NCBI GenBank assembly: GCA_000380225.1
Contig: KB904821.1
Span: 331,633-395,632 of the forward strand
From: a filamentous cyanobacterium ESFC-1
GTDB lineage: Bacteria; Cyanobacteriota; Cyanobacteriia; Cyanobacteriales; Spirulinaceae
Direction: 5' to 3'
DNA length: 64,000 nucleotides
Shown: positions 17,453 to 22,397 of the stretch, piece after piece
Numbering within the stretch: position 1 is the stretch's first letter
Layout of the letters: each line of letters starts with the position of its first letter
Notes under the pieces: model-generated
What the model saw: the letters and a program-made list of their open reading frames with translations, nothing else
The model's database searches: none
What the model was told of the DNA's origin: nothing
Position numbers and translations under genes: made by a program

Positions 17453-20149
17453 ATGAGCGCCACCGAGACAAAATCGCCAGAATCCGATAGTTTAGAATTT
17501 AGTGGGCGATCGCCCGATGCAACCTTAGACCAACTCGACGTTAATCCCGACCAAGGCTTAAGCGAATCAGAAGTACAGCAACGCCGGGAAAAATACGGCA
17601 AAAACCGCCTCGCTGAGAAAAAACAACGCAGTGCTTGGCAAATCCTCATTGCTCAGTTCAAAAGCCCGATTATCGCCTTACTGGCGGTTGCAGCCGTGTT
17701 ATCTTTCGCTTTTCAGCAATGGGTCGAAGGAGTCGCGGTCATTATCGCCATTTTACTCAACGCAGGCATTGGTTTTACCACCGAACTCAAAGCCCTAAGC
17801 TCGATGCAAGCTTTACAGGAATTGAGCCAAACCCAAGCCACCGTGCGACGAGAAGGGAAAATCCAAGAAATTTCCGCCGAAGAATTAGTCCCCGGCGATA
17901 TTGTCATTTTAGACAGTGGGGCGGTGATTGCGGCAGATTTGCGCGTCTTAGAAGCGTCGAAAATGCAAGTAGACGAATCAGCCCTCACCGGAGAATCCGT
18001 CCCCGTTACCAAAGACACCGAAATCATCGAAGACGATGTGCCTTTGGCCGAGCGTTCTAATATGCTATTCAAAGGTACAGCCCTAACGCGAGGCTCAGGA
18101 GAAGGTATTGTGGTAGCCACGGGAATGAATACCGAATTAGGTCATATTTCCAAACTTACCTCCGAAGCCGAAGACGAAATTACCCCCCTCGAAAAACGCC
18201 TTGATAAACTCGGACGCACCTTAATTTGGGTCACATTAATTGTTGCGGTTTTAGTCGCGATCGCGGGCATTATTGGTGGCAAAGACTTATTCTTAATGAT
18301 AGAAACGGCCATTGCCCTCGCCGTTGCCGCCGTCCCCGAAGGCTTACCCATCGTGGCCACAGTCGCCCTCGCTCGCGGTATGTGGCGCATGGCCAAGCGT
18401 AACGCCCTCATTAACCGCCTTTCAGCCGTCGAAACCCTCGGTGCAACCAACATCATCTGCACCGACAAAACCGGAACCCTCACGGAAAACCGCATGACCG
18501 TGGCTCGCATTGCCCGACTCGAAGATGAAATCGCCCTCACCGGGGAAGGATTAGCCCTAGAAGGCGAGTTTAAGCAAGAAGACAGCACTTTTGACCCCAA
18601 CGAAGACCAACGGCTCAAAACTGCCTTAGAAGTCGGTGTATTGTGTAATAACGCCTCCCTCCCCGACGAAGGCGAAGGAGACGAAACCATTGGTGACCCT
18701 ATGGAAATCGCCCTCCTCGTCGCCGGGGCCAAAGCGGGGATTCGTCACGAAGCCCTACTGAATCAATTTCCCGAACAGCGAGAAGTGGCTTTCGATACCG
18801 AAACCAAAATGATGGCCACCTATCATGAAAGCGACAATGGGATTCGCGTTGCTGTTAAAGGCGCACCCGAAGCCGTATTTGAGGTTTGCAGCCATTACCT
18901 CGGTACTGACGGTAAACAAGAAATGGGCCCGAGCGAACAATGGCAAGAACGCAGCACCCAACTCGCCCAAGAAGGCCTCCGCATCCTCGCCCTTGCCCAA
19001 AAAACCGTTGATAACCCCGACACCGAACCCTACAAAAACCTTACCCTCGTGGGTATTGTCGGCTTACTCGACCCCCCCCGCGAAGATGTCAAACCCGCCA
19101 TCAAAGACTGTCACGATGCCGGAATCCGCGTTATTATGGTCACCGGCGACCAACCCGTTACCGCCCGCAACATCGGGTTAGCCGTCGGCCTCACCAACGA
19201 CCAAGAAGCCGAAGCCCGCAAAGGGTCTGACCTCAAACCCCTCGCAGACTTATCTTCCCAAGAACAACAAAACCTGCAACAAGTCCCGATTTTCGCCAGA
19301 GTCAGCCCTGAGCAAAAACTCAACCTCATCGCCCTGCATCAAGCCAACAACGCCATTGTGGCCATGACTGGGGATGGCGTAAACGACGCACCCGCCCTCA
19401 AAAAAGCCGATATCGGGGTCGCCATGGGACAACGAGGTACTCAAGTCGCCCGTGAAGCCGCCGACATGGTATTACAAGACGACGCATTTGCCAGTATTGT
19501 CGCCGCCGTCCGCCAAGGTCGCGCCATTTTCAACAATATTCGCAAATTTACCGTATATTTGCTTTCGGGAAATATGGGGCAGATTATCGCCGTCGGTGTA
19601 GCTTCCCTCATCAACGCCCCACTGCCCTTACTTCCTCTACAAATCCTCTTTCTCAACGCCATTAACGACGTATTCCCCGCCTTAGCCCTCGGAGTCGGAG
19701 AAGGCAACCCCCAACAAATGCAGCATCCTCCCAGGGATAAAAGCGAAGCCATTTTAACCCGCAGTCATTGGACGGCTATCGGCGTTTACGGCGTGGTGAT
19801 TGCTGCGGTTGTTTTAGGGGCATTCTTCCTGTGTTTGCACGTCCTGGGCTACGAGCAAAACCAGGCAGTGACCGTATCCTTCCTTACCCTTGCCTTGGGT
19901 CGCTTGTGGCACGTTTTCAATATGCGCGACGACGACGCACCGATATTTCGCAACGAAGTCACCACCAATCCTTACGTCTGGGGGGCGTTGGTGATTTGTA
20001 CAGGGTTACTCCTCCTTGCGGTTTATATCCCCGGTTTAGCTGGCGTTTTAGGCATTGTTCGCCCCGGTTTGCAGGGTTGGGGCATTATCCTCGGCGTTAG
20101 CTTTGTCCCGGTGATTTTCGGGCAAATCTGGAAAGCGTTTAAATCTTAG
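17453..20149 (+). CDS. P-type cation ATPase, calcium-type (P2)
   Basis: 898 aa. N-terminal cation-ATPase domain, actuator loop with DESALTGESVPV, phosphorylation motif with Asp338 in DKTGTLTENRMT, nucleotide-binding domain, and the hinge TGDGVNDAPALKKADIGVAM. Membrane helix 4 has VPEGLP, typical of P2-type Ca/Na pumps, and helix 6 contains LNAINDVFPALALGVGEG. About ten membrane helices are predicted. It probably exports calcium; the exact ion cannot be read with certainty since the helix-6 motif differs from the canonical NxxxD pattern. It stands alone, divergent from the TIGR02587/88 pair. Confidence 0.92.
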   Translation: MSATETKSPESDSLEFSGRSPDATLDQLDVNPDQGLSESEVQQRREKYGKNRLAEKKQRSAWQILIAQFKSPIIALLAVAAVLSFAFQQWVEGVAVIIAILLNAGIGFTTELKALSSMQALQELSQTQATVRREGKIQEISAEELVPGDIVILDSGAVIAADLRVLEASKMQVDESALTGESVPVTKDTEIIEDDVPLAERSNMLFKGTALTRGSGEGIVVATGMNTELGHISKLTSEAEDEITPLEKRLDKLGRTLIWVTLIVAVLVAIAGIIGGKDLFLMIETAIALAVAAVPEGLPIVATVALARGMWRMAKRNALINRLSAVETLGATNIICTDKTGTLTENRMTVARIARLEDEIALTGEGLALEGEFKQEDSTFDPNEDQRLKTALEVGVLCNNASLPDEGEGDETIGDPMEIALLVAGAKAGIRHEALLNQFPEQREVAFDTETKMMATYHESDNGIRVAVKGAPEAVFEVCSHYLGTDGKQEMGPSEQWQERSTQLAQEGLRILALAQKTVDNPDTEPYKNLTLVGIVGLLDPPREDVKPAIKDCHDAGIRVIMVTGDQPVTARNIGLAVGLTNDQEAEARKGSDLKPLADLSSQEQQNLQQVPIFARVSPEQKLNLIALHQANNAIVAMTGDGVNDAPALKKADIGVAMGQRGTQVAREAADMVLQDDAFASIVAAVRQGRAIFNNIRKFTVYLLSGNMGQIIAVGVASLINAPLPLLPLQILFLNAINDVFPALALGVGEGNPQQMQHPPRDKSEAILTRSHWTAIGVYGVVIAAVVLGAFFLCLHVLGYEQNQAVTVSFLTLALGRLWHVFNMRDDDAPIFRNEVTTNPYVWGALVICTGLLLLAVYIPGLAGVLGIVRPGLQGWGIILGVSFVPVIFGQIWKAFKS

Positions 20150-20170
20150 ATGGTACAAACTTGTGCCATT

Positions 20171-20495
20171 GTCAATGTCCGAGTTCTCGCGATCGCGCAT
20201 AAGCGGCATAAACCGCTTCAATAACCGCCGATCGCAACCCTTTGTCTTCTAACGCCGCAACACCAGCGATGGTTGTACCGCCGGGACTGGTGACGCGATC
20301 TTTGAGTTGGGCGGGGTGGAGTTGGCTGTCTTGCAGTAGTTGGGCGCTTCCTAACACGGTTTGGAGGGCGAGTTGAGCGGCGATCGCGCGGGGCAATCCC
20401 GCTTTCACCCCCCCATCGGCGAGGGCTTCGATAAACAACGCCACAAACGCCGGGCCCGATCCCGATAATCCGGTCACTGCGTCCATGAGGTTTTC
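20171..20495 (-). pseudogene. Duplicated 3' fragment of proC
   Basis: These 325 bases repeat 20965-21289 (the proC 3' end) with only about four differences. An ORF from an internal Met ([14 protein letters not shown]) would give 104 aa of the C-terminal dimerisation domain, lacking the whole NADPH-binding Rossmann domain. It is not expected to be an enzyme. The match starts and ends abruptly at GTCAATGTCC and GAGGTTTTC. See the finding on Campbell-type integration. Confidence 0.92.
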
Positions 20496-20580
20496 AAGGC
20501 ATTGGTTGAAAGTAATCGCGATCGCATCCGAGATTTAGCTTTAACCGATCTGCAAACCTCCTCAACTTGAAGATAGCCGA

Positions 20581-20865
20581 TCAGCAGCATTCTTCTTCAA
20601 CTTGTCCCAGAAGTGCTAGGGCTTCTTCGTTGTTGTATTCTTCAAACAAGGCGTGAACTGAGTTGATTTGACTTCCCACAAAATAAAGGTCATCTTGTCC
20701 CAGAGATTGCTGATTTGCCAATTTAGTGCGGAAGTAGTCAACCCAGGGGCTAGGGTGGGGCGGTTCGGCTGTATATTGCTTAATGTATTCTAGAAGCTGT
20801 CGGGCTTTACCATCACAATCAATTCCCCGAAAGCTGACATAGCGATCGCCAGTTGGTTGGGTCAT
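20581..20865 (-). CDS. cowN: CowN, nitrogenase protection (N2-fixation sustaining) protein
   Basis: 94 aa. It follows the CowN family pattern nearly end to end: DRYVSFRGIDCDGKARQLL at the start, then PWVDYFRTK, DDLYFVGSQIN and the C-terminus LLGQVEEECC with a paired Cys. CowN binds nitrogenase and limits inhibition by carbon monoxide, and supports growth on N2 in proteobacteria. A GAGGA Shine-Dalgarno sits about five bases before the ATG. Its neighbours are not nif genes; it lies between proC and the proC fragment, so it was probably inserted there. This is the only gene in the window that suggests diazotrophy. Confidence 0.85.
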   Translation of the reverse strand: MTQPTGDRYVSFRGIDCDGKARQLLEYIKQYTAEPPHPSPWVDYFRTKLANQQSLGQDDLYFVGSQINSVHALFEEYNNEEALALLGQVEEECC

Positions 20866-20895
20866 GTTTTCCTCAAGATTTATTGCATTGACATC

Positions 20896-20920
20896 CTCCC
20901 CGCCCTAAAAGGGACGGGGA
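20896..20920. mobile_element. IS200/IS605-like end hairpin
   Basis: CCCCGCCCTAAAAGGGACGGGG is a GC-rich hairpin with a one-base bulge. The flanks TGACATCCTC before it and ATTCCTAGC after resemble the end of IS200/IS605-type elements (TnpA/TnpB) common in cyanobacteria. It is 30-55 bp upstream of cowN. No transposase is attached, so it is a remnant or a dispersed end. Confidence 0.55.
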
Positions 20921-20965
20921 TTCCTAGCAGTCGAACAAACTGAGTTGTTCGTACTTTAGATGGGG

Positions 20966-21772
20966 TCAATGTCCGAGTTCTCGCGATCGCCTATAAGCCG
21001 CATAAACCGCTTCAATAACCGCCGATCGCAACCCTTTGTCTTCTAACGCCGCAACACCAGCGATGGTTGTACCGCCGGGACTGGTGACGCGATCTTTGAG
21101 TTGGGCGGGGTGGAGTTGGCTGTCTTGCAGCAGTTGGGCGCTTCCTAACACGGTTTGGAGGGCGAGTTGAGCGGCGATCGCGCGGGGCAATCCCGCTTTC
21201 ACCCCCCCATCGGCGAGGGCTTCGATAAACAACGCCACAAACGCCGGGCCCGATCCCGATAATCCGGTCACTGCGTCCATGAGGTTTTCGGGGATATCTA
21301 CCACTTGCCCCACGGCTTCAAAAATATTCCGGGCTGTTTTCAAGTGGTCGGGGGTGACTTTTGCACCAGGGGCGATCGCGCTCATCCCTGCCCCTACCGT
21401 CGCGGGAGTGTTCGGCATTGTCCGAACCACAGGGTTTTCGGGAAAAGCCGCTTCGAGCCGAGCGAGGGGAACCCCGGCTAAAATCGAGACGATTAAACTT
21501 TTAGATTTAACTGAGTTTGTCTCGTTTAATTGCGCGGCGACTTTATCCAACACTTGCGGTTTAATCGCCAGCATCACCACCTCAGCGGCCATGGCCTCGG
21601 CATTACTGGTACTGGTTTTTACGCCGTATTGCTGCTGAAGTTGCAGCAAACGGTCGGGGGCGCGATCGCACACCAAAATTGCCTCAGCTTGATACAAGCC
21701 GCGATCGAGTAGGCGGGATAACAGCGCTTCGCCCATTACCCCGCCACCAATGAAACTAAGTTGAATAGACAC
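20966..21772 (-). CDS. proC: Pyrroline-5-carboxylate reductase
   Basis: 268 aa. It catalyses the last step of proline synthesis. N-terminal Rossmann domain with FIGGGVMGEALLSRLL, then VMLAIKPQVL and MPNTPATVGAGMS; C-terminal dimerisation and substrate-binding domain with [16 protein letters not shown] and SPGGTTIAG. All landmarks are intact. It lies 26 bp downstream of sepF. The proC-sepF-pipY-pipX neighbourhood is a known conserved cluster in cyanobacteria. Its last 325 bp are repeated at 20171-20495. Confidence 0.95.
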   Translation of the reverse strand: MSIQLSFIGGGVMGEALLSRLLDRGLYQAEAILVCDRAPDRLLQLQQQYGVKTSTSNAEAMAAEVVMLAIKPQVLDKVAAQLNETNSVKSKSLIVSILAGVPLARLEAAFPENPVVRTMPNTPATVGAGMSAIAPGAKVTPDHLKTARNIFEAVGQVVDIPENLMDAVTGLSGSGPAFVALFIEALADGGVKAGLPRAIAAQLALQTVLGSAQLLQDSQLHPAQLKDRVTSPGGTTIAGVAALEDKGLRSAVIEAVYAAYRRSRELGH

Positions 21773-21797
21773 GCTTCGCGAATTAAAAATCCAAGAT

Positions 21798-22397
21798 TTA
21801 CTGAGCCATCAAGTCTTGTTCCATTCCCCAAGCGGCGGGGGTTTGCATGGGCATAGGGGCTTGGCGCATAGGCGCAGCCGGAGCTTGCGTGACTTCGTTC
21901 ATCGTGCCAGCTTGAGTGGTCACTTGAACGCAACTGGGAGTAAACAAAAAGATACTTTCGCCAATGCGTTCTTGATGACCATCAATAGCGTAAGTCCCAC
22001 CCGCGACAAAATCAACGGCTCGTTGGGCTTCGTCTGGGTCGATGGTGGTGAGATTTAAAACCACAGATTTCCGTTCCCGTAGCGCTTGAATCACCTGGGG
22101 CATTTCTTCAAATGTCCGGGGTTCAACTACCACAACTTCCGACAATCCGGCAGTTCCGGGCATACCAATAACATTGTTACGAGGTGCTGATGAAGCCATA
22201 TCCGTTTCTGTGTTCAAAGTGGATCGTTCGCGGGGTCTTCTGCGGTTGGGGCGCTGTTCTTCAACAGCAGGCGCAGATGCTTCTTCGGGATAGACATTTT
22301 GGTATTCCGTGTTGTCCATCTCCTCATCATAATATTCGTATTCTTCGGCTTCGTTGAGGCCGACGAAATCTCGGAGTTTAGAAAAAATTGTATTCAC
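21798..22397 (-). CDS. sepF: Cell division protein SepF
   Basis: 199 aa. It anchors FtsZ filaments to the membrane at the division site (known as Cdv2 in cyanobacteria). An N-terminal amphipathic helix ([14 protein letters not shown]) is followed by an acidic then basic linker (about 15-90) and the SepF core ([48 protein letters not shown]). A low-complexity Met/Pro/Gln tail ends the protein. It is preceded by 440 bp of spacer from pipY and followed closely by proC. Confidence 0.92.

Follow-up and report, generated by a model that had tools for sequence, protein, structure and literature searches.

How did cowN come to lie behind proC in the filamentous cyanobacterium ESFC-1, and what does it do there? 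The initial annotation of this window (the whole 64,000-nucleotide stretch analysed, C1:331633-395632, where C1 is the contig) recorded a complete cowN with its own Shine-Dalgarno sequence, far from any nif gene, and took it to imply either a diazotrophic life style or a transferred gene with another role. The CowN work of PMC8047169 concerns proteobacteria, and the string 'cyanobact' does not occur in its main text. CowN itself is an already-known kind of protein; the host and the setting are the unusual part, and a somewhat surprising one. Of the new points, two stand out: the patchwork insert in which the gene sits, whose proC duplication and insertion sequence (IS) end were missing from the initial annotation, and the rare branch of cyanobacterial CowN to which the gene belongs.

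The assignment to CowN is firm. The predicted protein matches Pfam PF20543 over positions 1-94 of 94 (124.2 bits, cut-off 27, E 3.3e-36) and the NCBIfam equivalog model NF033689 (122.5 bits, cut-off 48), and the annotated coordinates proved exact. GAGG at 20871-20874, 5 bases ahead of the ATG, bears out the reported Shine-Dalgarno sequence. A profile search of the ESFC-1 genome returned this single CowN match, and the same search matched none of 14 control genomes. In a 38-row alignment the conserved residues are present (DRY, the D-C pair near 16-17 and the C-terminal CC), and eight of nine nearly invariant positions are kept, the exception being N79, where D is usual. Identity to the 29 non-cyanobacterial rows of this alignment is 37-51%, the proteins of Gluconacetobacter, Rhodospirillum rubrum and Rhodobacter capsulatus not being among those compared. 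By model match, the protein belongs to the same Pfam and NCBIfam family as the CowN of Gluconacetobacter diazotrophicus, R. rubrum and R. capsulatus (PMC8047169), and a Mo-nitrogenase is likewise encoded in the genome. An AlphaFold2 model predicted from the 38-row alignment is all-helical (mean pLDDT 82, five helices of at least 4 residues, no strands), as is the four-helix bundle predicted for CowN in PMC8047169. A sequence search for a solved CowN structure gave no match at E up to 1, and none of the 24 Foldseek hits to the model reached E 0.001. The GC content of cowN (46.3%) is close to that of the window (46.6%). Judged from substitution rates, the dN/dS of ~0.125 between cowN and its closest copy, in Leptolyngbya sp. 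DLM2.Bin15, shows purifying selection along the path to that relative, a ratio that averages both lineages and so says little about the short time after insertion.

ESFC-1 was isolated in pure culture on N-free plates from an Elkhorn Slough mat, according to PMC3731833. PMC4995827 describes it as fixing nitrogen and carrying nifHDK, and describes sister Spirulina strains as being without nif. Its genome has three contigs totalling 5,632,035 bases, of which two measure 5,431,811 and 64,875 bases, and is the only one found in its genus by a genus search. We found nifH, nifD, nifK, nifE, nifN, nifB and nifV above curated NCBIfam cut-offs, all of the Mo type, with nifH at C1:2683667-2684485 and the remaining nif genes at ~C1:2.67-2.69 Mb, ~2.3 Mb from cowN. 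The annotation was thus right about both the distance from nif and the diazotrophic host. The genome search that it had proposed recovered all three nifHDK genes, and the opposite case, a genome with no nif genes and no CowN profile match, is excluded on both halves.

Table 1. Features of the insert and its surroundings (positions in the window).
Feature	Position	Strand	Description
Cation P-type ATPase	17453..20149	+	Far side of insert, apparently unrelated; Pfam E1-E2_ATPase, Cation_ATPase_C and others
Second proC 3' copy	20171..20496	-	Last 326 nt of proC region, partner 20965-21290, 5 differences; contains 104-aa 3' proC fragment
NUDIX hydrolase gene tail	20496..20570	+	Last 24 codons and stop; converges on cowN, 10 nt between stops
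cowN	20581..20865	-	Complete, ATG start, 94 aa; PF20543 and NF033689 matches; dN 0.095 / dS 0.759 versus DLM2.Bin15
cowN leader	20866..20887	-	22 nt, contains GAGG; IS similarity stops just ahead
IS200/IS605-type tnpB element end	20888..20964	-	Last 77 nt: final tnpB codons, G+C-rich hairpin, TCAA end
proC	20966..21772	-	Complete, 268 aa; 57-69% identical to one homologue each in 14/15 other genomes searched

cowN lies downstream of, and on the same strand as, a frame that we take to be proC, encoding pyrroline-5-carboxylate reductase; among the 15 other genomes searched, the one in which no homologue was found is G488. Between the complete proC and the second copy of its 3' end is a patch of 468 nt consisting, in order, of the NUDIX tail, cowN, its leader and the IS end (Table 1). 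The joins around cowN are gap-free and can be read directly in the sequence.

The pieces of the patch have different affinities. Compared with the tnpB IS200/IS605-type elements of the same genome, the last 70 nt of the IS end are identical to two copies (C1:514016-514085 and C1:906977-907046), and the right end alone remains near cowN. Two more copies are 94% and 90% identical, and 15 further places (E up to 0.003) match the hairpin part alone. Four fuller copies have a tnpB ORF, and the one scanned matches Pfam OrfB_IS605; upstream of one tnpB copy, two overlapping opposite-strand frames (L063 982-1390) resemble a split tnpA by eye. Because no tnpB frame is left in 20888-20964 and the final codons alone persist, we regard this segment as an element remnant. 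Over 57 nt (20501-20557), the NUDIX tail shares 86% identity with a NUDIX gene elsewhere in the genome (C1:1150143-1150199, Pfam NUDIX). That gene converges not on cowN but on a radical-SAM gene resembling moaA by eye (the pair at L051 444-1433 and 1488-1973), so the tail near cowN does not come from that locus in its present form. The 22-nt leader we infer to be the remainder of cowN's former place.

The simplest account is that illegitimate recombination captured a piece bearing cowN and repeated the proC 3' end. IS similarity terminates at the element's TCAA end, and the 8 bases CCATCTAA are common to native sequence and IS where they meet at proC; this may be the microhomology that was used, which would also require a small deletion. 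The insertion would be recent, since just 5 of 326 bases distinguish the two proC pieces. We also looked for the empty proC-ATPase site in relatives; the 14 ProC loci examined in other genomes all lack this ATPase within a flank of ~1.5 kb. Across the 64-kb window, Rfam gave nothing at gathering score and there are no tRNA genes.

The patchwork could be an artefact of assembly, in which case cowN would be real but located elsewhere or present in a different copy number. ESFC-1 is a short-read draft, assembled from shredded consensus pieces with 222-nt and 7.8-kb insert libraries (PMC3731833); the 326-nt repeat is longer than the reads, and the 794-nt tandem unit could collapse. However, the same paper reports 719x mean coverage and a manual check of possible misassemblies, the two proC pieces differ at five bases and the joins are gap-free, and the reported totals imply reads of ~123 nt on average, longer than the 77-nt IS remnant. 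We therefore consider an artefact very unlikely.

The position of cowN bears on how it might be expressed. A promoter scan, of a kind that non-consensus promoters escape, found nothing resembling a sigma-70 promoter in 20000-22000, and nothing resembling a terminator was found between proC and cowN. Nor do the 100 nt upstream of cowN contain an exact NtcA, NifA or CooA-core consensus, an absence that is weak evidence in itself; nif-coordinated expression of cowN is accordingly without support from the sequence. For NtcA and sigma-54, the strings used in this search are those we presume to be the consensus. For NifA and CooA, they were taken from PMC8047169. In contrast to the three proteobacterial systems, cowN of ESFC-1 has no adjoining cooA, sits after proC beside an IS end, and lacks an exact CooA-core or NifA consensus over the same 100 nt. 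With no promoter or terminator predicted between the two genes and no regulator consensus upstream, read-through from proC is plausible, and it is our leading idea for cowN transcription: the gene would now be transcribed via proC rather than from its own promoter responding to nitrogen or CO. We dropped the further claim that the insert removed a proC terminator, as the native proC-ATPase hairpin is weak (-4.7 kcal/mol, z +1.0) and is not called a terminator. A strong fold is predicted for the IS-derived leader (20845-20975; -37.8 kcal/mol, z -2.2, reached by 5 of 200 shuffles), and the ribosome site GAGG is unpaired in it.

How unusual is a cowN away from nif? The initial annotation regarded nif genes as the usual neighbours of cowN, and here our survey points the other way. 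From GTDB contigs we took 80 cowN loci, the best 80 by score of 168 confirmed and two of them cyanobacterial, and searched them with ESFC-1's own nif proteins; flanks were at most 6 kb per side and some were shorter, so the counts are lower bounds. At least 11 of these 80 loci have a nif-like gene in the examined flank. Five of the 11 are Azospirillum loci with a NifV-like match alone (~30% identity), and at least 6 of the 80 have an H, D, K, E, N, B, X or X-associated gene. The query labels X, X-associated, U and S are our own assumption; the others were checked by NCBIfam. One Rhodobacter query detected a Crp/CooA-like gene at 31 of the best 80 loci. None of the nine other cyanobacterial cowN loci has a nif gene in the examined flank, which is short in some. 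With core nif genes seen in the examined flanks of none of these nine and of six of the 80 fetched loci, a cowN far from nif is not unusual, and its isolation looks like the rule.

CowN is rare in cyanobacteria. It is carried by 2 of 386 genomes in a phylum sample, 4 of 388 in an order sample and 7 of 388 in a class sample; the samples overlap and together hold ten carriers. All four carriers of the order sample have nifH above cut-off, versus 59 of the 386 genomes of the phylum sample, and nifH is present in four of the five carriers tested (a set that does not include G780, G796, G894, G895 and G900). The fifth is Leptolyngbya sp. DLM2.Bin15, where nifH was the only nif gene sought and none was above cut-off. 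Because DLM2.Bin15 (G669) and G683 (99% complete, 2% contaminated) hold the same 6,901 bases, we took them as one assembly. A plasmid route was considered and rejected: one match was found in 72,556 plasmid records, in Rhodobacter sp. CZR27, at 44.7% identity.

The closest relative of the ESFC-1 gene belongs to DLM2.Bin15 (L064, RECH01000185.1), with 82% identity in protein and 83% in DNA, and the tree pairs the two proteins at 99/91. Their surroundings differ: the DLM2.Bin15 copy is followed by a pgk-like gene (by eye), shows no match to NUDIX over the 6.9 kb examined, and has a different upstream sequence over the 60 nt compared. Between these two genomes, CowN is 82% identical (synonymous p 0.477) and ProC 61% (synonymous p 0.657), whereas between ESFC-1 and G489, a member of the same family, CowN is just 49% identical and ProC 69%. 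These crossed identities argue for transfer. The source of the insert was probably a cyanobacterium, with which the GC content of cowN and octamers in the insert would fit: cowN and the NUDIX tail each contain a copy of an octamer that we take to be HIP1, and to be linked to cyanobacteria. It occurs 134 times in the window and is absent from three of nine cyanobacterial cowN frames, so we treat it as a mild hint only.

The CowN tree that had been proposed as a check delivers this pairing and little of the deeper history, since with 94 columns and long branches it can be neither dated nor rooted. A single clade of all ten cyanobacterial CowN proteins is not rejected (p-AU 0.5) yet appears in 0% of 200 bootstrap trees; with G488 left out, the clade costs 10.66 log-likelihood units (p-AU 0.304), and a five-row version of the test gives 14% and p-AU 0.42. 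The free tree has 2 changes of cyanobacterial label. For the suggestion of a transferred gene this means that transfer itself is upheld by the identities, the tree pair and the patchwork, while a straight proteobacterial origin, though conceivable, is not shown and the movement would rather have been between cyanobacteria. It could also be that there was no transfer and that an old resident cowN was relocated within the ESFC-1 genome, as the unrejected single clade and the native IS would allow. This seems unlikely to us, though worth keeping in mind, because the more distant DLM2.Bin15 has the closer CowN and the same-family G489 the closer ProC, and because the NUDIX tail differs by 14% over 57 nt from the genome's own NUDIX gene.

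What does the protein do? Since it matches the family, has an intact frame and a dN/dS of ~0.125, and shares the cell with a Mo-nitrogenase, we consider CO protection of that enzyme the likeliest role, by analogy with the known proteins. The CowN of Gluconacetobacter binds directly but weakly to the MoFe protein and lowers the affinity for CO at the active site ~tenfold (PMC8047169). CowN of ESFC-1 would likewise bind the MoFe protein weakly and lower its affinity for CO, letting N2 fixation continue under CO, which may be present in a microbial mat. Taken together, a working cyanobacterial CowN with this role, set in a recombined patch beside proC and transcribed by read-through, is the explanation that we hold to be probable.

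Alternatively, cyanobacterial CowN may have a role independent of nitrogenase, for example on another CO-sensitive enzyme, with its presence in N2 fixers partly a coincidence. The absence of nifH above cut-off from DLM2.Bin15 leaves room for such a role: the cowN of this genome is intact, with low dN/dS to the ESFC-1 copy, and the genome with the same contig is rated 99% complete. The other nine cyanobacterial copies, as described above, have no nif gene in the examined flank, and at three of the ten loci cowN is adjoined by a divergent LuxR-type gene. Yet DLM2.Bin15 is a metagenome-assembled genome (MAG), binning can lose a nif region, and nifH alone was sought there. Four of five tested carriers do have nifH, and carriers are enriched for it in the phylum sample (2/2 versus 57/384 others, Fisher p 0.023) and, less clearly, in the ESFC-1 family (2/2 versus 2/11 others, p 0.077), both comparisons being small and uncorrected for kinship. 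We find a nitrogenase-independent role distinctly unlikely; the other role raised by the initial annotation has the nearest CowN-bearing MAG in its favour and no direct support. We attach a similarly low probability to cowN being a silent or decaying passenger of chance recombination. The insert looks young, adjoins an unrelated gene, and has trimmed the gene's own upstream region to 22 nt; moreover, the interrupted cowN of the relative G488 indicates that loss of the gene does occur. In ESFC-1, however, the frame is open, the C-terminal CC and other motifs are conserved, dN/dS is low, and the ribosome site is unpaired in the predicted fold.

It is possible to go further and propose that cyanobacteria have their own CowN branch, a stand-alone gene passing between distant lineages and able to persist where nitrogenase is absent, and that in ESFC-1 it forms a reversible cassette in which CO- and nif-responsive control has been swapped for proC read-through. 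We rate this broader proposal improbable; if it were true, the 326-nt repeats would permit precise loss or amplification of the cassette. Given a rare and patchy cyanobacterial CowN branch, one could test if N2 fixation in mats is limited by CO and if CowN is able to work in the absence of CooA or NifA control, and because ESFC-1 is a pure-culture isolate, both questions can be addressed in this strain.

Three observations concern cowN in other cyanobacteria. In G488, cowN is interrupted by ~120 nt that look repeat-like by eye (L028 ~1570-1690), and this genome has nifH above cut-off. The divergent LuxR-type genes mentioned above (L168 8778-9509, L169 6164-6961 and L170 2712-3455, with a GerE domain and an unassigned N-terminal portion) are candidate regulators of cyanobacterial cowN. 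Upstream of cowN in G489 (L027 9516-9616) is a perfect inverted repeat, TGACAC-N14-GTGTCA, which is a possible operator.
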